Source of the DNA: a virus
IMG/VR virus record: IMGVR_UViG_3300017731_000018
Coordinates: 1-33,598 of that record
Strand: one strand, 5' to 3'
Length of the DNA stretch: 33,598 nucleotides
Shown: positions 2,694 to 19,984 of the stretch, in pieces
Position numbering within the stretch: position 1 is the first letter of the stretch
Layout: each line of letters begins with the position of its first letter
Made by a program: the position numbers and the translations under genes
The notes under the pieces: generated by a model
The model's input: the letters and a program-made list of their open reading frames with translations, nothing else
What the model was told of the DNA's origin: nothing
Databases searched by the model: none

Positions 2694-2942
2694 TTAACAC
2701 CTCCATCTTTTTCTAGCTGCTTTACCTCTTTCACTAGTCCAATTTTTTGATCTAGCGCAAAATGATTTTCTACGTTTAGCAGCTTTACTACCTTTTTTAA
2801 CTTTACCTGTTACAGCTGTCTTTAATTTACTACCAGGGTTTTTACGTCTATATGCTGCCACTCCTTTTTTAGTCATACCAGCGCCTTCTTTAGTTGATCT
2901 AAAGTTACGTCCTTTGCCCCTTGTAGTTTTTCTTATAGCCAT
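2694..2942 (-). CDS. 82-aa Lys/Arg-rich protein, conserved SFCARSKNW...RKRWRC family
   Basis: An extremely basic protein with the segments GAGMTKKGVAAYRRKNPGSK, LKTAVTGKVKKGSKAAKRRK, SFCARSKNW and a C-terminal GKAARKRWRC. This layout is recurrent, from memory, in marine phages and in nucleocytoplasmic large DNA viruses as an uncharacterised domain. The regular Gly/Lys/Arg spacing suggests nucleic-acid contact, and the two Cys near the C-terminus could pair. It starts six bases before the stop of the secreted thioredoxin-like gene ends, and its own stop lies two bases before the next start. Confidence 0.8.
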   Translation of the reverse strand: MAIRKTTRGKGRNFRSTKEGAGMTKKGVAAYRRKNPGSKLKTAVTGKVKKGSKAAKRRKSFCARSKNWTSERGKAARKRWRC

Positions 2943-3595: not shown

Positions 3596-4087
3596 TTAGT
3601 TATTTTTTTTACCGCCACCTGTTGATGTCACCGTATTGGTAGCTACAGGAGCGCCAGCGCCACCAGTTGTGTTGCCACCATAGCCTTGTGAACCACTTGT
3701 ACTACCAACGGCTATTGGTGCATTATTATTAACATTGGGATTTGGTGTTATGTGTCCATATGTACCCTTAGCGTGACCGTGGTATCTCCATCTGCTATCA
3801 TGATACCTGTAATCATACCTATAATCATTATACGGGTTATAGTATCTATTATCTTGCCACCTTACAAAATCATATCCCACCACATTATATGTTCTCTGTG
3901 GTTGTATATCCTGTATTCTTATTTTAACAGTATCACCCATTTCAGTTAAAGCAAGTACGTGAGTAACCATTATTTGGTTACGTGGATACATCATAGATGA
4001 GCAACCACTTAATATAGCGAACGCTAATATACTTATTAATATTCCTATTGCTATTAATCTACCTGTGTCTCTTTGTTTTTCTGTCAT
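3596..4087 (-). CDS. Predicted lipoprotein with Tyr/Arg/His-rich region, o-spanin candidate
   Basis: ATG 4087 gives 163 aa: MTEKQRDTGR, a hydrophobic stretch (residues 11-25) and a lipobox Leu26-Ser-Gly-Cys29 followed by SS, so signal peptidase II processing and lipid attachment at Cys29 are predicted. After a short beta-like part (VTHVLALTEMGDTVKIRIQD) comes a segment packed with Tyr, Arg and His (YNDYRYDYRYHDSRWRYHGH) and then a Gly/Asn/Thr/Ser-rich tail ending GGGKKNN. The ATG overlaps the stop of the 33-aa membrane gene (TAATG). Outer-membrane anchoring near lysis genes suggests an o-spanin, but it is longer than usual and has a low-complexity tail; an envelope-modifying role is an alternative. 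Confidence 0.75.
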   Translation of the reverse strand: MTEKQRDTGRLIAIGILISILAFAILSGCSSMMYPRNQIMVTHVLALTEMGDTVKIRIQDIQPQRTYNVVGYDFVRWQDNRYYNPYNDYRYDYRYHDSRWRYHGHAKGTYGHITPNPNVNNNAPIAVGSTSGSQGYGGNTTGGAGAPVATNTVTSTGGGKKNN

Positions 4088-5389: not shown

Positions 5390-8300
5390 TTACCATAAAA
5401 TGTTACTACCTTTTTTACCTTTTTTCTTTTTTGCTAATTTTTTAGGTTTATTGTCAATCCCAACGTCCCAAGTGTTCCATCCTAAAACCAAAGCTATTCG
5501 CTGCCAAGCTTTATTATTTTTGTCTAATGCTGCTCTAGCATTTTGCACATCTTTTAATGCTCTGTCTAACGGCACGTTTGTAGCTGCTGATACAGTGTTG
5601 GCAACTGCTTCGTAGACTGGATTGTCTATGTGAAAGCCTTTTTTACTTATTTCATCTCTATTAAACTTAATAGCCTGCGTCGCGCTATATACTTTTCTTA
5701 ATTTACTACCTATTGTTGGCGATAGATTAATGCCTTCTAGTATTGTATAAGCATGATCCGCTCTTGATCCTTTTTTCTCTTGTTTAACGAATTGTAAAGC
5801 CATGTTCTTCAACGTAGACGCCGCAGCACCATAAACACCTGTGCCTCTTAGTATAGTATCAGCCATGTTATTTGCTACTCTAGCGTACTTTTGTTTATCT
5901 TTTTCTTCATCTTCATCTTCGAAAGCCATGCTAAACAATGCGTTTTGCAACGCTGAGAATATAAAGTTTTGTATAGCTCCATAATATAATATCTTTGATA
6001 TGTTTGTTTTAGCATCACCTCTACCGTTTTTTAAATCTAACGCAGCTTTTTTTATTAATCTCGTATACTGCATTGGCGTGTTTTGAAATGCTAATATAAA
6101 CCTACCAAGTGGACCAGCTTGCTGTTGAGATATTAAGTCTGGTCTTGCTGATTGCTGCGATACTTCAGAAGTCTCTTGAAAATCTTGAAATGCTTTATCT
6201 TTAGCTTCATTTTCACTTAACCCTTGTTTTTTATAAGTGTTTAATCTATTTCTGTAAAATGCAGCACCACCTGAAGCAATAGCGAAACTATCAGCCATTT
6301 GTGTAAAGACAAAACCTCTTCTTAACATATAAGAAACTAAAGCATTAAATTTATTTTTTGATCCAGCTGCTTGATTAACTATTTCAGAGGCACTTACATC
6401 CGTTTGTAATCCTCTTCTTCTTTCTTTTAGCATATCTGAGTTAAATATAGTAGCAAAATCTTTGGCGTATTGTGGAAAATTTCCAATGGCTTTTGCAAAT
6501 TTAAGTGGATTATTATCAGACCAATTTATAAAGTTAAGTGTTGATAACGTTTGTAATATAGCAGATCTTCTATTAAAAAACATTATAGTGCCAACAGAGT
6601 TATTTATCCACTCTGTAAAGTCATTGACTAGTTTATTTTGACCTTGAGTTCTGTTACTACCTATTTCCATACGGTAAAGTATATCTTCTAATGCTTCTCT
6701 ATAATTATTACCATATAGTGCTTGTAGTTTATTTAAATTATTTTCAGAGAATATTATATCTACATTTTGTTTCCACTCTTTTAAATACTTTGCTCTATTA
6801 ACTCTAACGTTAACATCACGTAAATCGCTTTCTATCGTAGAGGCTAGCCAAGAGGAACCATCTGGTATTATATAACCAGTTTCAAGCCCTGCTATGTTAG
6901 CTACTTGATCACCGTACTCTACTAAACGTTGGTTGTCATTTACCATTTTAAGTAAAGCCGCTTTATCTCTTTTTGATAAACCAGGTATATCAATGTTATT
7001 TTTATCCATAATATATACCCTTATGGCTTGATCAAAAGTATAGTTGTTGTAATCAGTAGCTTTTAATAGTTTTTTCTTAACATCTTTGTAGTCTTTTTTA
7101 AGCTGATCATATTGATTAACTATTTTTTGCTTAGCCGCGTTCATGTCTCTTGTAGCTCTTGCAAATGGATCAATTAAATTTTTCTTAAAAAACTTCTTTT
7201 GACTATCACCCTTTTTACCTTTGCCTAACAATGGATACATTAAACCCATAAAATCTTCAGCGCTATATGGTATAAATATATTTTTAAAGAAACTATCTTG
7301 ATTAGCTCCTCTTACCCTAGCTGTTGCGTCTGAAAATGTAGCGTTTGGATCAATGCCCGTGTTTTCACTCAATATTTCATTGAAGTCATTATCAAGCGAT
7401 TTACTTAATTGCGCTTTAGCTTGTTGCACATCATACTTAACATCAACTTGACTTAATACATCTTGCACTGCTTTAACGTTTTTATATGCGTCATCTCCAA
7501 AGAAAAAGTTATTATAACCGTCTGCAACCTTATCTAATATAAATTGTGCTTTAGCTTCAGGGTTACCATTTTCTAAGCCTGTAATGTTTTTAATTTTTAC
7601 ATTTAACCCAACACCTTTTAAAAACTTATGTATAGCTGGTGCGGCTGATTGAGGTCTAGCCGTTAATATAAATATATCTTTATTACCAAACTTACCTTTT
7701 ATTTTTTGAGCTAACTCAAAGAACGGTCCTTTAGTTGCGCCTTTAACTTTTTCAAACTGTGAAAAATCAAAAGTAGCGCCTTGTTTTTCTAGTAGCTCAG
7801 CTTGCTCTGCAAACTGCTGTGCGTTTAATTTTCCTTTTTTACCATCAGGCATTTCAAATAAAACCTTTTCTTTTGTATTTGCTAGCGTTTGATCAAAATC
7901 AAAAACACTTATTCCTTTTTCAGGGTTGTTAAAAGTTCTTGAAAATGATATAGCGTTATCAATTACTTTTAATTGATCTTCAACTTGATCAGACGTTTGG
8001 TTTGGTTTATTATTTATTGTTTTACTTGCTAAAACTAAATTAGCATTTTTATTTTTTTCTTTTGATACGTAGTTATCAGCTATCGCATCAAAAACCCTAA
8101 CAGCATCTTTAGCTTTTATTTGTCCAATTATTTGTTTGTGGATTAAATCTTGAGCCAAGCTAATTACATCTTGAGTCGGTTTGCCTTTAAAATTAAACCC
8201 ATATTTTTCAGCGACACTTTTACCATCTACTATTAAATCAAATGGGTTTATACCACCGTCTTTTGCATTTACCTCTGGATTAAAGTACCTTATTAAAACA

Positions 8301-11300
8301 TCGGGCATGTTTGTAAAGTCACCTGATTTAATAGCTTCTTGTAACTTGTCCATGTAAAACTTAGGCATAACCTCTTTGTACCCAGCGGCTGTTACTTTGT
8401 TGTCGTCAGTTCTTTTTATACCTATTCTATAGTAACTTTCTTTAAAAAAGTTAGCTACTTCTTTAAATTTACCCTTAACAACGCCTACCTCATAGGCTAT
8501 TGATGTTGCTATTTTATTTGTTAATACGTGCTCATCTGCGTCTGGTTTCTTTAGGTTGTTTAACGTGCTATCATAACCTCTAACAATAGCTAGTTGTCTC
8601 ATGAAATGACCAGTGCCTCTTGAACTAGTAGACATTATAGCTGCTATTGCTTGATTGCCTTTTGGTGTTTTTGCTATTTCGTTAAAAGTTTTTAATAAAG
8701 ACTCTGTACCTTTATAATTTTCATTAATATAATCTAAATGCTTTTCGTTGTTTTGTATTGCGTTATTTGTGTATACAGAACTTTGCAAAGCAGTGCCAAT
8801 GTTAGTATCAAGTTTAGCATTTGATTTTATTTGATTTTTTATAGCGTCTCTTCGTAACTTAGCTCTTTGATCGCTAGTAAAAAACCATCCGTATTTTTGA
8901 GATCTTTTTAAGTCTTTACCAGCGTTAGCAAAAGATCCAGCTGATAATAATTTTTCCATTGGTATGGACGTTTGAGATAAAACATCCAACACAATACCTT
9001 TAAGTAATTTAATATCGCTAGTGTCTGTGTTTTTTAATTGGTTTAATTTTAATTTATTAAGCAGTTCTGTTATACGTGATTTACCTGTGGTAAATTGGCT
9101 ATTGCTAAGTTGTATTTCAGATTTACCTGCGGCTATGTTTCTTACAGACTGCTCATATTCTTTATTTTTAACAAGCTCGTTTCTTAAAACTGTATTAGTT
9201 GCTAACTTACCATATAAAGACATCATAGCTTTTACAGCTTGAGCTTCAGGCGTTCTTGGCCCAAAGTCAGTAGATTTTTTACCTTCAACAATACCAAAAG
9301 CTTCCAAAAATTCTTTTTTAGTTATATTATCTTTTAATTTATAAGGTGATAAGCCTGCGCCTTTAGTTATCCTAGCTTGTTTAGTATAAAATTTATTTAA
9401 TAAACTTTTAGCAACACCGGTTGATGTACCTATAAGTTTTTCAGTCGCTGCTTCTGTTACAGCACCTTCGGGTAGTAATGATATTAAATCTACAGCATTA
9501 GCTCTAATAAACTTCAAAGCATTTTCTTTTTCTTGCTTTGTTAAGTTAGCAGTTGGGTCTGTTATTTTTTTACTTGGCACCTCAAATACTCTAGCTGTAT
9601 TTTCAGCAGATAAATCTTTGACGTTTTTAAATGTTAAATTTTCTATATCTAAACCTGGTATTTTAGAAGCAATGTCGTTAATAAAATCTTCTTTTATATT
9701 TTCATCTCTAGCTAAATCAATTGGATTAATTTTTCTAGCCTTAGGCTTTTCAGTAACTTCAGGTAAAGCTGTTTCTTCTGCTGCTACTTTTCTAGCTTCA
9801 GTTATATCTGTTTCAAAAACATCTTTAGTACCAGCTGTACCTTTTCTAAATACATTACCAATTTTATTTGATAATTGTGAATTTATCCAACCAGATAAAC
9901 TATCATTAACTTCTGGATTAAAGTTTCTAATATGAGGTATTAATTCAAATATAGTTTCACTAACAAAGTCTTCAGCTGAAAAACCTGGTGGTTGATTTCT
10001 AGGTATTTTGCTTTTAACTAAACCATCTAATCTATCATATAACTCTTCAATGGCTTCATCAGCTTTACCAGCATCCCACTGCTCTTTAGTTGTATTTTTA
10101 CCAAGCTTGTTTATTTCAGACTCATTACTTGATGTAACAGACTTTTGTATATCTTGTTGAGCTATAGCTTCCCTTACTTCTTGTTTCTTATCTTTTCTTT
10201 TATTTTTAAGATCATTTAATTTATTAGTATCTCTTGGGTTTGTGTCTTCTATTTGCGCGTCTAACTCTCTGCCTTCTTCTTTTAATTTATTCACTAAATC
10301 ACTTATATCCTCACCACGGCTAGCTCTATCACTATAGTCTAATAAAAAGTTATATGCTGACTTGCCTGTTTTAAAGCTAGCATTATCATAGCCAAACCTT
10401 TTAAATATACTAGAAAAATTACCTGCTACACCTTTCCACCATGCACCATCTGTAGCATTATACTTTATGTCTTTCTTTACTATAGCATCGTGAAATATAT
10501 TTAAATACTCCTCCGCATAATCTTCAAAAGCTTTTTCTGTGCCATCTTCATTGTACCTATAATTTTTATCAATACGATCTTGTACAATTTTTATTTCTTT
10601 AGCTGATAGTTGTTTTCTAAAGTTGTTTATTAAAGCAATACCAGATGGTGTGATATTACCGTTAGCGTCTCTTATTACGTTTTTAACTATATCATGTAAC
10701 AACTCGTGTGATCCAACTGATATAGCACCTGTTTCTATTGATGCTGTTCTATTTATATGTAATACGCCATTTAAATAAAAACCATCTACACCACTAACAT
10801 CTATTGATTCTTTAGGATCAGCACTGTCATATACATCTTGAAACTCATCTGTGTTATCGTAAACAACGACTTCATCTGGCCTTTTGTTTTTTCTAGCAAA
10901 CTTTATATTTTCATTTAATCTTCTTTTAGTTGTAGAATTAAATATATTACTTGAGCCTCTAGCTAACTGATCTATTTCTTTTTTTATTTCAGACTTTACT
11001 TCTTCGTTAGTTTCTGATTTATAATCTTTAATTTTATTTAATCGCTTGTCTGTTAAGTTACCAAGGTTAGTTAACTCTTCTTGCTTTAAATTTTTAAGGT
11101 TGTTTTGTATTTTTCTTCTTTTATTAAGTATATCACCAACCTCTTTTTCAATTTTATTTTCAATTATTTTTTTGCCGTCTTCTGTTTTAGCTTCATTTAA
11201 AGTTACTTGCAGTTTATTTATATTGTCTGCTCTTTTAGTCAAGTAATCTCTGTCAGCTTTACTCATAAATAAATTAATCGCGTGCTCTTGTAGAGCAGAC

Positions 11301-12604
11301 TCAGATGTCATTAAGTTTTGCATTGTACTAGTGGTACCACCCATAGCCACACCTAATATAAAAGCATCCGACTTATCTCGCGTTATTTTACCAATGTCAT
11401 TATATATGTCGCCATATGATTGATCTTTTAATGTAAGCCTATCTATTATTTCTGCTGTCATCTCAACCGCTAGTTCTTCTGTACCTTCAAGACCAGCTGT
11501 TGTTATTGTATTTACTAATCTACCAACAGATCCTTTTGTTAAATTTTCAACAGCTTTTTTACCTGCGCCTTTAGCAAATATACCAGTACCAAATAATAAT
11601 CTTTGTGTTACTAAACCACCTGCTACTTCTACAGCTGCCGTAGAACCCGCGTTAAGCATTGCTAAACCGACTGTTTTGTTTGGGTTATCTTTAAATACCT
11701 CTTCAAATTTACTACCATACATGCCAGCTCCCATTGTCAGTAACGCTGGGGCTCCGCCAGCCGCAGCTACTAAAGTAGGTGCTGTTTGTATCATGCCATT
11801 AACTATTTGGCTACCTGCATCAAACAAGTTACCTTTTCCTAACGCTGATATTATATCCCCATCATATTTAGTTATGTTTTTCTGTACTTGCTCTTGATAC
11901 TTTTTAACAGGCTTAGACATTGAAGTTAACTTATTTAAAGGCTGTAAAAAAGCTGGCATAGTTGGAGAATAAAAGTCTGCTAGTTCTTGCGCGTTTACTT
12001 TAGTTTCAATTTCTTTACGCTCTTCTTCTGATATATCAGCTAATAAAAAATTTGGTATGCCAAACTTTCCGTCTGAGTACCTATCAAATAATTCTGATTT
12101 ATATTTAATAGATTTTCTTGCATCTGAAAGCCAAGCTAATGGTGTAGATAAAGCAATTTTAAAAGACTCATCTACGTCAATAAAGTCTGTATCACCACGT
12201 ACTTCCGCTGCTAATGCTGTTGGTGAAAACACAACTTGCGCCGCTTGTTTTAATTCATCGTATTGAGATATACTTTTTATATCTCTCATTTGTTCGTATG
12301 AAGCTTTGATTGGTTTGCCTTGCCTGTTAACATTAGGCGTTGTGCTAACTATGTCCTGCATTGTAGAAATTTTAGGAACAGCACTCATAGTAAATTTTGA
12401 ATAATCTGGCTTTGGAGTTAAATAATTTTTATTAATATGATCAACAGTATCTTGATTTAATTTAGAAGGTTCGTATTTAGAGTAAAAATCATTGACAAAC
12501 GCAGACACGTCGTTGCCATAATTCTCCTCTACATATTTTATTTTATCGTCAATATTTTCGTTAGGTGCATACTTACGATAAAGATCTCTTATTAAATCTT
12601 GCAT
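5390..12604 (-). CDS. 2404-aa polyvalent giant protein, probably virion-carried and ejected
   Basis: Domains seen in order: N-terminal DLIRDLYRKYAPNE helix unit; Gly/Ala-rich hydrophobic region (about 268-345) that may contact membrane; long coiled coil (about 450-560); zincin motif HELLH at 633-637 with a later EDYAEEY acidic run as possible third ligand; a segment at about 860-925 resembling sigma-70 region 2 (SAEDFVSETIFELI, FNPEV, SGWINSQLSNKIGNVFRK); HAD phosphatase-like domain about 1565-1720 with FDFDQT (Asp1569, Asp1571), FILTARP and FFFGDD (Asp1704, Asp1705); C-terminal region (about 1950-2260) like the large polyvalent protein-associated domains of phages; a hydrophobic stretch near 2200-2230; a Lys-rich tail. 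Polyvalent proteins are known to enter the host with DNA and act early. It follows two internal-virion-like genes, consistent with ejection. Catalytic functions are inferred from motifs. No frameshift or internal break is seen over 7.2 kb. Confidence 0.85.
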   Translation of the reverse strand: MQDLIRDLYRKYAPNENIDDKIKYVEENYGNDVSAFVNDFYSKYEPSKLNQDTVDHINKNYLTPKPDYSKFTMSAVPKISTMQDIVSTTPNVNRQGKPIKASYEQMRDIKSISQYDELKQAAQVVFSPTALAAEVRGDTDFIDVDESFKIALSTPLAWLSDARKSIKYKSELFDRYSDGKFGIPNFLLADISEEERKEIETKVNAQELADFYSPTMPAFLQPLNKLTSMSKPVKKYQEQVQKNITKYDGDIISALGKGNLFDAGSQIVNGMIQTAPTLVAAAGGAPALLTMGAGMYGSKFEEVFKDNPNKTVGLAMLNAGSTAAVEVAGGLVTQRLLFGTGIFAKGAGKKAVENLTKGSVGRLVNTITTAGLEGTEELAVEMTAEIIDRLTLKDQSYGDIYNDIGKITRDKSDAFILGVAMGGTTSTMQNLMTSESALQEHAINLFMSKADRDYLTKRADNINKLQVTLNEAKTEDGKKIIENKIEKEVGDILNKRRKIQNNLKNLKQEELTNLGNLTDKRLNKIKDYKSETNEEVKSEIKKEIDQLARGSSNIFNSTTKRRLNENIKFARKNKRPDEVVVYDNTDEFQDVYDSADPKESIDVSGVDGFYLNGVLHINRTASIETGAISVGSHELLHDIVKNVIRDANGNITPSGIALINNFRKQLSAKEIKIVQDRIDKNYRYNEDGTEKAFEDYAEEYLNIFHDAIVKKDIKYNATDGAWWKGVAGNFSSIFKRFGYDNASFKTGKSAYNFLLDYSDRASRGEDISDLVNKLKEEGRELDAQIEDTNPRDTNKLNDLKNKRKDKKQEVREAIAQQDIQKSVTSSNESEINKLGKNTTKEQWDAGKADEAIEELYDRLDGLVKSKIPRNQPPGFSAEDFVSETIFELIPHIRNFNPEVNDSLSGWINSQLSNKIGNVFRKGTAGTKDVFETDITEARKVAAEETALPEVTEKPKARKINPIDLARDENIKEDFINDIASKIPGLDIENLTFKNVKDLSAENTARVFEVPSKKITDPTANLTKQEKENALKFIRANAVDLISLLPEGAVTEAATEKLIGTSTGVAKSLLNKFYTKQARITKGAGLSPYKLKDNITKKEFLEAFGIVEGKKSTDFGPRTPEAQAVKAMMSLYGKLATNTVLRNELVKNKEYEQSVRNIAAGKSEIQLSNSQFTTGKSRITELLNKLKLNQLKNTDTSDIKLLKGIVLDVLSQTSIPMEKLLSAGSFANAGKDLKRSQKYGWFFTSDQRAKLRRDAIKNQIKSNAKLDTNIGTALQSSVYTNNAIQNNEKHLDYINENYKGTESLLKTFNEIAKTPKGNQAIAAIMSTSSRGTGHFMRQLAIVRGYDSTLNNLKKPDADEHVLTNKIATSIAYEVGVVKGKFKEVANFFKESYYRIGIKRTDDNKVTAAGYKEVMPKFYMDKLQEAIKSGDFTNMPDVLIRYFNPEVNAKDGGINPFDLIVDGKSVAEKYGFNFKGKPTQDVISLAQDLIHKQIIGQIKAKDAVRVFDAIADNYVSKEKNKNANLVLASKTINNKPNQTSDQVEDQLKVIDNAISFSRTFNNPEKGISVFDFDQTLANTKEKVLFEMPDGKKGKLNAQQFAEQAELLEKQGATFDFSQFEKVKGATKGPFFELAQKIKGKFGNKDIFILTARPQSAAPAIHKFLKGVGLNVKIKNITGLENGNPEAKAQFILDKVADGYNNFFFGDDAYKNVKAVQDVLSQVDVKYDVQQAKAQLSKSLDNDFNEILSENTGIDPNATFSDATARVRGANQDSFFKNIFIPYSAEDFMGLMYPLLGKGKKGDSQKKFFKKNLIDPFARATRDMNAAKQKIVNQYDQLKKDYKDVKKKLLKATDYNNYTFDQAIRVYIMDKNNIDIPGLSKRDKAALLKMVNDNQRLVEYGDQVANIAGLETGYIIPDGSSWLASTIESDLRDVNVRVNRAKYLKEWKQNVDIIFSENNLNKLQALYGNNYREALEDILYRMEIGSNRTQGQNKLVNDFTEWINNSVGTIMFFNRRSAILQTLSTLNFINWSDNNPLKFAKAIGNFPQYAKDFATIFNSDMLKERRRGLQTDVSASEIVNQAAGSKNKFNALVSYMLRRGFVFTQMADSFAIASGGAAFYRNRLNTYKKQGLSENEAKDKAFQDFQETSEVSQQSARPDLISQQQAGPLGRFILAFQNTPMQYTRLIKKAALDLKNGRGDAKTNISKILYYGAIQNFIFSALQNALFSMAFEDEDEEKDKQKYARVANNMADTILRGTGVYGAAASTLKNMALQFVKQEKKGSRADHAYTILEGINLSPTIGSKLRKVYSATQAIKFNRDEISKKGFHIDNPVYEAVANTVSAATNVPLDRALKDVQNARAALDKNNKAWQRIALVLGWNTWDVGIDNKPKKLAKKKKGKKGSNILW

Positions 12605-12615
12605 ATTATATTATT

Positions 12616-14118
12616 TTAAAGCCCCTTTTCTCTACCAGTTGGTGTTGTGTTACCTCCTGTGATTGTAGCAAAGTAGTTTGGATCGTAATTAAAAATACCC
12701 ATAGCTGACAAAGTTTCTTTAGTAATATCAGCTGAGTTAGTAACTTCTATCCTATATGGAAAACTTTTTACCTTATTATCATCAGCTTCTCTCATCCTAA
12801 ATATTTCAGGCACTGAGTTTTCACCCGTGGTTTTTCTTTTATATTTTGTGTTAAATTCATTTGTTATACTTGCTACAGTAGGTGGCTCTTCATCTGGACT
12901 GTTTATTTTAGCGGCTTGTTGTTTTGCTTCTATGTAATTTTTTAAAGCTTCTGATCTACCAAGATAAATATGATCGGCGTTTTTACTAACGCTATTTATT
13001 TCGCTAGCAACGTTTTGCCCTACAATATCTGCCATAGTTTCATAATCTTTAACCTCTTGCGCTTTAGAAAAAAGATCTTGCAGTGGGCCTTGCACACCTA
13101 GTACACCAAACTCTATTTTTGTAATAGGTTGAATATCTCTATTTACTACTGTGTTTATTTTATCATAAATAGTAGCTAGCGTGTTATTAGAAGATGCTAT
13201 TCTGGCACTAAAGTTACTAGCGTCTTTTGCTTTTAATCTATTAGCTTTAACACCAGTTATTTGTGACTTATACCACTCGTTTATTTTTTCTCTTCTTCTA
13301 ACATCTTCATTTTTACCTTCTTCTATATTACCTTGTTGAGTAGAATTAAGTAAGTTTTCAAATATAAATTCAACTTCTTCTTGATCTATGTTACCTAAAC
13401 CTTGATCTAAAGCTTCTTTTATAGATTCTTTTGTGGTATTTGTATCACGCATACCGTCTTTTTCTTCTTGTCTTTGATTAGCAATACCTATAATGTTTTT
13501 TATTTTTGTGTCTACCTTAGCTTTCTTATTCTTGTAATCTGTAGAAGATGCTTGTATGTTACCTAATAACGTTGCAAGTTGGTTATGACTCATAGTTTTT
13601 GTTTTACCATCTACAGTATATGATATTTCACCTACGTATCTTGCTTGTCTACTTGAGTCATCTATTACCATTTTAACATCTACGTTTTTGTTTTCCATAG
13701 CACTAGATAATTCCATCCAGGTTTGGTTGTTGATATTTGTTTTATCTAATTCTAATGGCGTAACAAAAACACCTTGTGCAAAATTATTTAATACACCAAC
13801 TACTTCGCCGTGTGATTTAGCTAAAGTAAGCTGTTCCGTTTTGTTTAATTTATTTTGCATGATAAAGTCTGTACCCGCTTTAACTGAATCAAATAACGCT
13901 TCTTCTCCATTGTTGTTATATAGTTCAGCAGCATCAAGTTTTTCATACATCTTGTTACCAACCGCGAATACTTCGTTTTCATACTTTTCTTCTCTAGCTT
14001 GCTTTTCTTTTCTGTAAGCATCCACGGCTGCGTATGCTTTATCAAAATTGTTTTGAAAAGCTTTTAAGTTTTTACTTGGATCTATTATTGTTACTTGTGG
14101 ATTTTCGTATCTTCCCAT
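12616..14118 (-). CDS. 500-aa putative internal virion protein
   Basis: A largely helical, charged protein without membrane segments or recognised motifs. N-terminal part (MGRYENPQVTIIDPSKNLKA, then QNNFDKAYAAVDAYRKEKQA) is coiled-coil-like; the middle is rich in Asn, Lys and Asp; the C-terminus has a small beta-like part around SFPYRIEVTNSADITKETLS. It lies between the small membrane-interacting protein with the predicted frameshift and the 2404-aa giant, the place occupied by ejected internal proteins in short-tailed phages. Begins 13 bases after the end of the -1 frame extension of the upstream gene. Role is inferred from order; sequence alone gives no function. Confidence 0.7.
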   Translation of the reverse strand: MGRYENPQVTIIDPSKNLKAFQNNFDKAYAAVDAYRKEKQAREEKYENEVFAVGNKMYEKLDAAELYNNNGEEALFDSVKAGTDFIMQNKLNKTEQLTLAKSHGEVVGVLNNFAQGVFVTPLELDKTNINNQTWMELSSAMENKNVDVKMVIDDSSRQARYVGEISYTVDGKTKTMSHNQLATLLGNIQASSTDYKNKKAKVDTKIKNIIGIANQRQEEKDGMRDTNTTKESIKEALDQGLGNIDQEEVEFIFENLLNSTQQGNIEEGKNEDVRRREKINEWYKSQITGVKANRLKAKDASNFSARIASSNNTLATIYDKINTVVNRDIQPITKIEFGVLGVQGPLQDLFSKAQEVKDYETMADIVGQNVASEINSVSKNADHIYLGRSEALKNYIEAKQQAAKINSPDEEPPTVASITNEFNTKYKRKTTGENSVPEIFRMREADDNKVKSFPYRIEVTNSADITKETLSAMGIFNYDPNYFATITGGNTTPTGREKGL

Positions 14119-14131
14119 AATTTAATTTTTA

Positions 14132-14236
14132 TTAGTCTGTAAACGAAGTGTTAATTAGACTTTTGTCACTATAAATATCTTTTGATAAATCTGCCAACCT
14201 TTTATCTGCATTGCCCCGTCTTGCGGGGCTTACTAC
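14132..14236 (-). other. Minus-1 frame extension (34 aa) of the internal virion protein
   Basis: After reading S-G-K at the slippery site, a -1 shift continues as VVSPARRGNADKRLADLSKD and then IYSDKSLINTSFTD before TAA at 14134-14132, giving a product of 283 aa instead of 249. The -1 frame has no ATG of its own. It fills almost exactly the 114-base gap before the next gene, which starts 13 bases later; that is the only gap of this size inside the internal-virion block. The extension is charged and helix-like and has normal codon use for this genome. Confidence 0.65.
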
Positions 14237-14242
14237 TTTCCC
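14213..14242 (-). promoter_or_regulatory. Predicted -1 ribosomal frameshift signal (slippery GGGAAAG plus hairpin)
   Basis: In the reading direction: heptamer G GGA AAG (14242-14236) in the correct phase X XXY YYZ, a six-base spacer TAGTAA that includes the zero-frame stop, then a hairpin GCCCCG-CAAGA-CGGGGC (14229-14213) of six G-C pairs and a five-base loop. GGGAAAG is the known slippery site of the lambda G-T tail gene. Spacer length and stem strength fit stimulatory elements of -1 frameshifting. The stem is all G/C in a very AT-rich genome. No T-run follows it on either strand, so it is not an ordinary terminator. Confidence 0.75.
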
Positions 14243-14982
14243 GAGCCATCACCAAAACCATCCGCGCCAAGCGCCATTAAGCTTCCTCCTACAGTACCTA
14301 TTGCGCCAAATATAGCTTCGTTACTAGCTGATCTAAATGCTGCAGCTTGTGCTTGTGAATTATCAACCATTGTTTGCAGTCTATTTAACTGCTGTAAATC
14401 TCTTGCTTCTTGTTGTTGGAAAGTAAACTGATCACCCGCTGTTCTAGCTTGCTGCACTCTAGCAGCTTCACTCATTAATGCTCTTTGCATTTGTGCTTCA
14501 CCTTGCGCTCTTAATCTAGCGTTTTGTGCTTCCTGTTGTTGTATTGTAGCAGAAACACCTCGTTTACTTCTTAACGCTGCTTGTGCTAAAGCTGTTGCTC
14601 CACCCGCACTAGCGCCAGTTGCTCTTAATGTATCTAAAGAACTAGCTAATGATAAGTCAGCTTCTTCTGCTTGAAAATCAGCTGCTTGCGTTGCAACTTG
14701 TAGATTAGCAAACGGGTTGCTTATCATACCACTTAAATCTTGTATGTTTGCAAAAGGATCAATTATCTCCTGTCTATTAGCCTCAGCTTCTGATAACTGA
14801 TCTTGAAAGTCTTGCTGTCTTGCCCTTGCTTTTCTAGCTCTATTAGCGTTACTTATACCGCCAATAATACCTCCTAGCGCAGATACAGCGGCACCTATAA
14901 TAATAGGTGCTACGCTCTTATGAACCTGCAAATCAGGATCACCGTTCCAAAAAATATCTAATATGTGTATTAACTCTTGCAT
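14233..14982 (-). CDS. Internal virion (gp14-like) protein, zero-frame product
   Basis: A 249-aa protein with one hydrophobic Gly/Ala segment near the N-terminus (about residues 23-43, VAPIIIGAAVSALGGIIGGI) followed by a basic patch (NANRARKARARQ) and then a long Gln/Ala/Arg-rich helical body, ending in a second hydrophobic stretch (AIFGAIGTVGGSLMALGADG). This layout resembles the small internal virion proteins of podoviruses (T7 gp14-type) that form part of the ejection channel, but similarity is architectural. The final codons TCG GGA AAG TAG contain the slippery heptamer GGGAAAG, so a second, longer product is predicted (see the extension and signal entries). Gene order (just upstream of other internal proteins) supports the role. 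Confidence 0.75.
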   Translation of the reverse strand: MQELIHILDIFWNGDPDLQVHKSVAPIIIGAAVSALGGIIGGISNANRARKARARQQDFQDQLSEAEANRQEIIDPFANIQDLSGMISNPFANLQVATQAADFQAEEADLSLASSLDTLRATGASAGGATALAQAALRSKRGVSATIQQQEAQNARLRAQGEAQMQRALMSEAARVQQARTAGDQFTFQQQEARDLQQLNRLQTMVDNSQAQAAAFRSASNEAIFGAIGTVGGSLMALGADGFGDGSGK

Positions 14983-18616: not shown

Positions 18617-19984
18617 TTAATCGTATACTCTTGTGGTTTGATCTTCTGGTAAAACTTTATAAGGTTTTTCTGATTTATATATATATTTTAATTGCTGTCT
18701 ATAGTACCTAAAGAAAAATGTTAATGTAGCATTATCACCAAAAGTTACATTGTCAGATACTGTTATTGAAGTTCCGGCGTTATTAACAGTTACTACAGTA
18801 GTTACACCAGACTGATGCGTTAATTGCATACCAACTTTTACATTAGTGTTAGCATCAATGGCTATAGTTGTGCTATTGTTAACAGCACCGTTAGTTTGGC
18901 CTGATATTTCAACAGGTTTTATTTCGTACTGCTCAATATTACTTGTGAAACTACTATCGTCTACTACCAATTTAGCAACTGCATATACAGCCACGCCATC
19001 TGATTCTTTTAATAATATCTCAACTTGTTTTATATTATACGGGTTGCTGTATGTTGTGGTGGGACTGTACTGCGCTGTTTTAAATTCATCAGCGTTAGGC
19101 AATGGTATTCTTAGCTCTACAAAGTTGTAGGCGTTTTCCATAATATCTACACTACCTTTTTTATAAATATCTTCTGCTGTTATTAAAACGTCTGGTTCGC
19201 CTGATGTAGTATTTTTAGAATTAGCGTTAGAAGCTCCCAATACTGGTGATATAACACCGTTGTTTAATGGTTTAAAAATAATTTGCGTAAATGGTGCCAT
19301 GGTAGAATATTCACCGTCGTCAAATTTATATCTATAAGAAAATCTAACAAAATTTTCTTTTAAATAATCTGACTTAACGTTACTGTCTCTTTTTAATGTT
19401 GTGCCGTCTCCAGCAGCACTAGTATTATATAACACCGGTGGTATATATGGCGTGAGTTTAGCTACGCTTATTTTTTCTTCTGAATCATAATAAGCACTAT
19501 TAGCAAGCGCTGTGTCAATGTTTATTTTTCTTGGTTGATTGTAGTTATCGGTCCAAAACAATAAATTATCAATTACGTTAACGCCTGTAATTAAATGAGC
19601 TTTGCTGAAGTTTAAAAAATGACCATTAACTAATATTTTTAATTCACCAGCAGCACTTAACATATATATTCTACACACATTACTGTTAGTAGCTCTAGAC
19701 ATGTTCAACACGTTACCGGTATCACCCGTAAAGTTTGTTACAAACCAATAAATATTTTTTGTTTTTGTGTCAGCGTAGTAACCTATTGTTTCAGCGTTAG
19801 AAATATTTATATCGTCGTGCTTCAGCTTATTGCCTAGTACGTTTTCTATAGCACCAACGTCACTATCTTCAGAATCATTTATCAAGATGTTTTGTGCGTT
19901 TCTATATTCACCTTTAGGCAAGACTCTTTCGTCGAGGTCTTTGTTCATCTTGCCTTTCAGAAACGTGTTTTTTATTTCTGGCAT
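18617..19984 (-). CDS. Structural protein, 5' part (455 aa) ending at in-frame TAA
   Basis: Starts MPEIKNTFLKGKMNKDLDER, then VLPKGEYRNAQNILINDSED, an SDVGAIENVLGN motif, and a LLFWTDNYNQPRKINID block with a beta-propeller flavour. It ends LPEDQTTRVYD followed by TAA, and the same frame continues VPLRAKAQEVTGNRIVYGNF with no further stop until 16337. In related marine phage proteins, as I recall them, Lys occupies the position of this stop (RVYDKVP...). The whole reading frame would be 1215 codons. This may be a natural nonsense change, a readthrough site or a sequence error; the second half lacks a good ATG start. It is a long structural protein of the neck or tail, by context. Confidence 0.8.
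   Translation of the reverse strand: MPEIKNTFLKGKMNKDLDERVLPKGEYRNAQNILINDSEDSDVGAIENVLGNKLKHDDINISNAETIGYYADTKTKNIYWFVTNFTGDTGNVLNMSRATNSNVCRIYMLSAAGELKILVNGHFLNFSKAHLITGVNVIDNLLFWTDNYNQPRKINIDTALANSAYYDSEEKISVAKLTPYIPPVLYNTSAAGDGTTLKRDSNVKSDYLKENFVRFSYRYKFDDGEYSTMAPFTQIIFKPLNNGVISPVLGASNANSKNTTSGEPDVLITAEDIYKKGSVDIMENAYNFVELRIPLPNADEFKTAQYSPTTTYSNPYNIKQVEILLKESDGVAVYAVAKLVVDDSSFTSNIEQYEIKPVEISGQTNGAVNNSTTIAIDANTNVKVGMQLTHQSGVTTVVTVNNAGTSITVSDNVTFGDNATLTFFFRYYRQQLKYIYKSEKPYKVLPEDQTTRVYD

Follow-up and report, generated by a model that had tools for sequence, protein, structure and literature searches.

A very probable −1 ribosomal frameshift signal ending the gene of a small, putative ejection protein in uncultured phages of Bacteroidetes-type bacteria

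A 33.6-kb IMG/VR record (the window, that is, the whole stretch of DNA analysed) carries, at the end of the gene for a 249-aa small virion protein, a GGGAAAG heptamer that we interpret with high confidence as a −1 programmed ribosomal frameshift signal, predicted from the sequence to give a minority isoform of 283 residues (249 + 34). A dozen relatives have both the signal and the tail, so that the signal is very probably real; it represents a known mechanism in an apparently new gene class. The original prediction of a programmed −1 frameshift at this site is strongly supported by three lines of comparison: the co-occurrence of its elements in homologues, a coding signature in the −1 frame and one relative, L084, whose tail is homologous to a zero-frame C-terminus (relatives are designated by L numbers). 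The features of the site and its neighbours are as follows:

14233–14982, minus strand: zero-frame gene of 249 aa, gp14-like small virion (putative ejection) protein; from the ORF list, with more than 180 homologues
14236–14242, minus strand: putative slippery heptamer GGGAAAG in the phase G GGA AAG (codons TCG GGA AAG)
14233–14235, minus strand: zero-frame stop TAG, abutting the heptamer
14232–14230, minus strand: second in-frame stop TAA, in tandem with TAG
14213–14229, minus strand: putative stimulatory stem-loop GCCCCG-CAAGA-CGGGGC; relatives have hairpins of other sequence in the same place
14135–14236, minus strand: predicted −1 frame extension of 34 residues, VVSPARRGNADKRLADLSKDIYSDKSLINTSFTD; the pooled extensions of relatives have coding-like GC
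14132–14134, minus strand: −1 frame stop TAA; the start codon of the next gene comes after 13 bases
12616–14118, minus strand: next gene, 500 aa, in gp15-like position by synteny with phi38:1 gp100
5390–12604, minus strand: giant protein of 2404 aa, in gp16-like position by synteny with phi38:1 gp101 and elemo gp18

The spacer between the heptamer and the stem consists of the six bases TAGTAA. All six pairs of the stem GCCCCG/CGGGGC, which closes the loop CAAGA, are G-C, and the stem-loop alone has a calculated energy of −11.1 kcal/mol. From the end of the 249-aa gene to the next ATG (14118) there are 114 bases. The phase of the heptamer, the TAG, the 6-base spacer, the all-GC hairpin, the 34 open −1 codons and the 114-base gap had all been described beforehand, and every one of them proved correct base for base. 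Apart from this site (14242–14236), no gene end of the window has an in-phase GGG-type heptamer. GGGAAAG is present there three times, with 2.7 copies expected by chance, and the local folding energy in comparison to shuffled sequences is ordinary (z = −0.68); the window sequence alone therefore proves nothing and comparison had to decide. An Rfam search gave no match for the signal, and the exact signal of the window has no other copy in IMG/VR. Readthrough of the TAG was ruled out as a source of an extended protein: it would add nothing, since the in-frame TAA follows at once.

According to the proposed mechanism most ribosomes would read the 249-aa protein and halt at TAG. A minority would pause at the GC stem 6 bases further on, slip back by one base on G GGA AAG (tRNA-Gly to GGG, tRNA-Lys to AAA), bypass both zero-frame stops, add 34 residues and terminate 13 bases ahead of the next gene, resulting in a mixture of short and long copies. 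Both forms would most likely enter the virion together with the other internal or ejection proteins, where the tail, which is linker-like and flexible and carries a short motif, could serve as a docking tag needed on few subunits only. The slipping of ribosomes at a minority rate, the packaging of both forms and the docking by the tail are what we infer for this step, and the distinct role in the ejection channel suggested at the outset would be of the same kind.

The terminase, portal and capsid proteins of the window are related to those of Flavobacterium elemo phages, Cellulophaga phi38:1-type phages and a spring-water podovirus, and the carriers of the site are uncultured phages of Bacteroidetes-type bacteria. 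Cultured phages were searched at the DNA and protein level, the queries being the 249-aa protein, L144, L204 and the region of the window; there was no match, and hence no isolated phage with the site is available. The gene order in the window (terminase, portal, 392 aa, capsid and, further on, tail, 249 aa, 500 aa, 2404 aa) is the same as in phi38:1. At the end of the structural module stands a trio of a small, a medium and a giant gene, with sizes of 249-500-2404 aa in the window, 200-549-1691 aa in phi38:1 (gp99/gp100/gp101) and 202-450-3694 aa in elemo (gp20/gp19/gp18). Small ejection proteins of the T7 gp14/P22 type have ∼200–250 aa and are encoded by the first gene of such a trio (PMC8954989). 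The window protein resembles them in size and trio place, its small gene being followed by gp15-like and giant gp16-like genes, but has no sequence match to T7 gp14 or P22 gp7, nor to any other PDB chain or named Pfam family. The family profile matches phi38:1 gp99 with an hhalign probability of 94.5; gp99 is annotated, by similarity, as a structural protein and shares one PHROG of virion structural proteins with elemo gp20. Weak PHROG matches of the 249-aa protein include DNA pilot and ejection proteins. Because of the trio organisation, the gp99 homology and these weak matches, a small ejection protein, gp14-like by synteny and homology and probably among those that enter the cell before the DNA does, is a fair inference from sequence. 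The name given to the protein at the outset, small ejection protein, thus fits its gene-trio place and its homology, the function in ejection itself being putative.

A tail assembly chaperone of the lambda G/GT type, whose gene usually precedes that of the tape measure, was also considered and rejected: the 249-aa protein matches no tail-chaperone family and the module is podovirus-type.

A search for relatives of the 500-aa protein of the next gene found none. In this protein (12616–14118) residues 216–264 give a below-cutoff match to Phage_TAC_15 (E = 3.6e-4). The 2404-aa protein (5390–12604) contains a sigma-70 region 2-like stretch at residues 855–921, just under the Pfam cut-off (E = 1e-4), and further on a HAD-phosphatase-like motif, FDFDQTLANT, recognized by eye.

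IMG/VR and genome contigs, searched with profiles and proteins, yielded 226 usable gene ends of the family, 183 of them distinct. In 168 of these 183 the gap is short (next gene start within 50 bases; median 13 bases) and in 15 it is long (59–162 bases). A canonical in-phase heptamer at the stop (GGGAAAG/C/T or AAAAAAG) was found at 14/15 long-gap ends versus 6/168 short-gap ends (Fisher 1.7e-15, with related sequences treated as independent), and off-phase heptamers in the same place at 0/15 long-gap ends. None of the 168 short-gap homologues has GGGAAA in phase at the stop. The set compared with control gene ends gave GGGAAA at the stop in 11/14 long-gap versus 0/161 short-gap focal ends; among the controls, which are other gene ends of the same loci, heptamers were found at 0/18 long gaps and GGGAAA at 0/557 short gaps. 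Furthermore, all 15 long-gap homologues have an open −1 frame across the gap; in the set compared with controls it stays open over 60% or more of the gap in 14/14 focal long gaps, compared to 2/18 control long gaps. Nearly all long-gap homologues have hairpins, which differ in sequence and start 3–7 bases past the heptamer; those of L230 and L176 are weak. Both elements of a frameshift site are hence found together, an in-phase heptamer at the zero-frame stop and a downstream structure, for which a distance of about 5–9 bases is usual, with a spacer of 6 bases in the window and 3–7 in relatives. By sequence, the combination of heptamer, hairpin and open −1 frame among relatives is far beyond chance.

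The individual cases are not uniform. L008 has a long −1 tail but an imperfect heptamer, GTCAAAG; L010 and L230 carry GGGAAAT and L113 carries GGGAAAC, heptamers that by E. coli rules are expected to shift poorly. L154 and L156 are near copies, so that the number of distinct long-gap lineages is one fewer. L167, with the heptamer AAAAAAG on a contig that ends early, is a probable further case. The signal is absent from 168/183 of the family and so cannot be essential for genes of this class. When the whole of IMG/VR was scanned without bias, the pattern GGGAAAGTAR N2–3 GCCC N4–9 GGGC was found at only 16 sites, five of which (four distinct) are ends of the small-virion-protein gene.

The comparison also bears on whether the −1 frame codes for protein. 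L084 has GGGAAAG, the hairpin GCCCAGGGAATTGGGC and the −1 tail VTAQGIGRPPVEVGEEWGSYTPSL. In the related L077 the zero frame reads PPTEVGETWGSYTPTL; the alignment of this stretch with the −1 tail of L084 scores 82 (best of 60 shuffles: 37), and the tail codons of the two differ by 9 synonymous and 3 non-synonymous changes. The −1 tail of L078 aligns with the zero-frame tail of L046 with a score of 60 (null maximum 52). L144, L141 and L176 have WAVND in common in the −1 frame, with 6, 8 and 19 substitutions at codon positions 1, 2 and 3, respectively. In this clade one heptamer is GGGAAAG and the others (L141, L176) are AAAAAAG; the slippery property persists through this change of letters, alongside the conserved WAVND. 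Beyond the hairpin the pooled tails show a G+C content of 0.39, 0.51 and 0.20 at the three codon positions. The median distance from the −1 stop to the next ATG is 13.5 bases, close to the median of 13 bases for the zero-frame stops of the other family members and to the 13 bases in the window. The tails resemble linkers and carry short motifs that are specific to lineages: a motif common to all of them was looked for and sharing was found within some lineages only, and none of the zero-frame tails of the family is a significant match for the tail of the window itself. We conclude from these sequence comparisons that the −1 frame is under protein-coding selection in several relatives.

That L077 holds the L084 tail in frame would also be expected if an indel or a faulty assembly had disrupted the frame, the extension then being the former C-terminus of one continuous gene. 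The window does contain another broken gene, so that mutations or contig errors in this record are possible: at 18617–18619 (minus strand) a single in-frame TAA splits a large tail-protein gene (RVYD*VPLRAKAQEVTGNRIVYGN), the flanking ORFs of 455 aa and 449 aa match the start and a later part of one family of 1474 positions, phrog_14478, and we take this TAA to be a mutation or contig error. At the focal site, however, 14 of the 15 breaks coincide with a canonical heptamer in phase, nearly always with a hairpin, and on many separate contigs, and none with an off-phase heptamer; random indels would not produce such a pattern, and we consider this explanation improbable. Slightly less probable still is that the hairpin acts as a terminator, attenuator or mRNA-processing element in a long intergenic gap in which the −1 frame happens to be open. 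In an AT-rich genome, a GC hairpin that comes immediately behind a stop and has an ordinary shuffle z-score would suit such an element, but its reading as a terminator was rejected, as no T-run follows the hairpin and a terminator scan does not include it; moreover, the −1 frame spans the focal gaps far more often than the control gaps, with coding GC3 and conserved amino acids. Transcriptional slippage at an A-rich run, giving a second class of mRNA instead of ribosomal slippage, is the least probable of all, for although L141, L176 and L167 have A6G, the A run of most members, which have GGGAAAG, is just three bases long and thus not long enough for RNA polymerase to slip, and the hairpin spacing of 3–7 bases fits ribosomal slippage.

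With programmed −1 frameshifting as the preferred reading, we turn to its distribution in the family. On a FastTree tree of 179 members, in which the near copy L156 was left unlabelled, the tail/heptamer trait requires 12 changes, at least nine of them on well-supported branches. The 28-member clade of the window includes L078 and L113, which have the GGGAAA/GCCC...GGGC layout in common with the window. Loss of the heptamer in homologues had been named in advance as a finding that would speak against the signal. Such loss does occur, as L009 and L018, close relatives of L010 (GGGAAAT plus tail), lack the heptamer; yet they lack the tail as well, and the joint loss counts in favour of the signal. 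In some relatives the tail is in frame on every copy, and in most there is no such tail; partial decoration by frameshifting would then be one setting of an adjustable trait. We propose tentatively, and at somewhat less than an even chance, that the C-terminal tail is an exchangeable tag, lineages switching between its absence, its presence on every copy (in frame) and its presence on a set minority (frameshift), and that such a minority would break the symmetry of the ejection ring so that few subunits dock a partner.

In tailed phages recoding has been documented mostly for tail chaperones, capsid or tail-tube proteins; the slippery site of lambda G/GT is GGGAAAG too. We know of no ejection-protein isoform ratio that is set by recoding. 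In T7 and T3 a −1 shift near the stop of gene 10 gives a minority, C-terminally extended form of the major capsid protein (10A/10B) in the virion (PMC5009743, PMC9965538), the T7 site having an imperfect heptamer and a stimulatory element more than 200 bases away (PMC5009743). A minority extended virion protein is likewise predicted here, although from a small putative ejection protein and with a hairpin 6 bases on. The Kuravirus YF01 capsid gene has a frameshift at the identical heptamer near its zero-frame stop, producing a −1 extended isoform (PMC9965538); its extension comprises hundreds of residues, in contrast to the 34-residue tail of a small internal-protein candidate. In lambda a low-level −1 shift links the two products of G/GT in a fixed ratio (PMC5009743), but the lambda chaperone is absent from mature virions and belongs to long-tailed phages, unlike the podovirus-type module without chaperone match studied here. 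A review of ejection proteins (PMC8954989) nowhere mentions frameshifting, and a search of open-licence papers, with most subscription journals outside its scope, found no literature on recoding in the small ejection-protein gene class, in agreement with the original statement that no such report was known.

A recurrent site with in-frame, frameshifted and tail-less relatives offers natural experiments, by which the need for differing DNA-ejection subunits becomes testable. It also means that, in a large group of environmental phages, the tails of virion proteins escape gene callers.

GGGAAAG, a stop and a hairpin were also seen at the ends of other genes. In L251 (∼8664–8689, minus strand) this signal joins a 102-aa ORF, which has no Pfam match, to a 105-aa −1 ORF, by eye a classical tail-chaperone arrangement. 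In L239 (∼11876–11903, minus strand) it ends a long, possibly virion-associated protein whose −1 extension matches Peptidase_M15_3. In L243 (∼3876–3901, minus strand) and L236 (∼2731–2757, minus strand) the genes that end in GGGAAAG, a stop and a GC hairpin are those of small proteins that seem to be anchored in a membrane; in L243 the product of the −1 frame is a glycosyl hydrolase 108 lysozyme and in L236 it is lysozyme-like by eye, and the two are possibly anchored lysozymes made by frameshifting.
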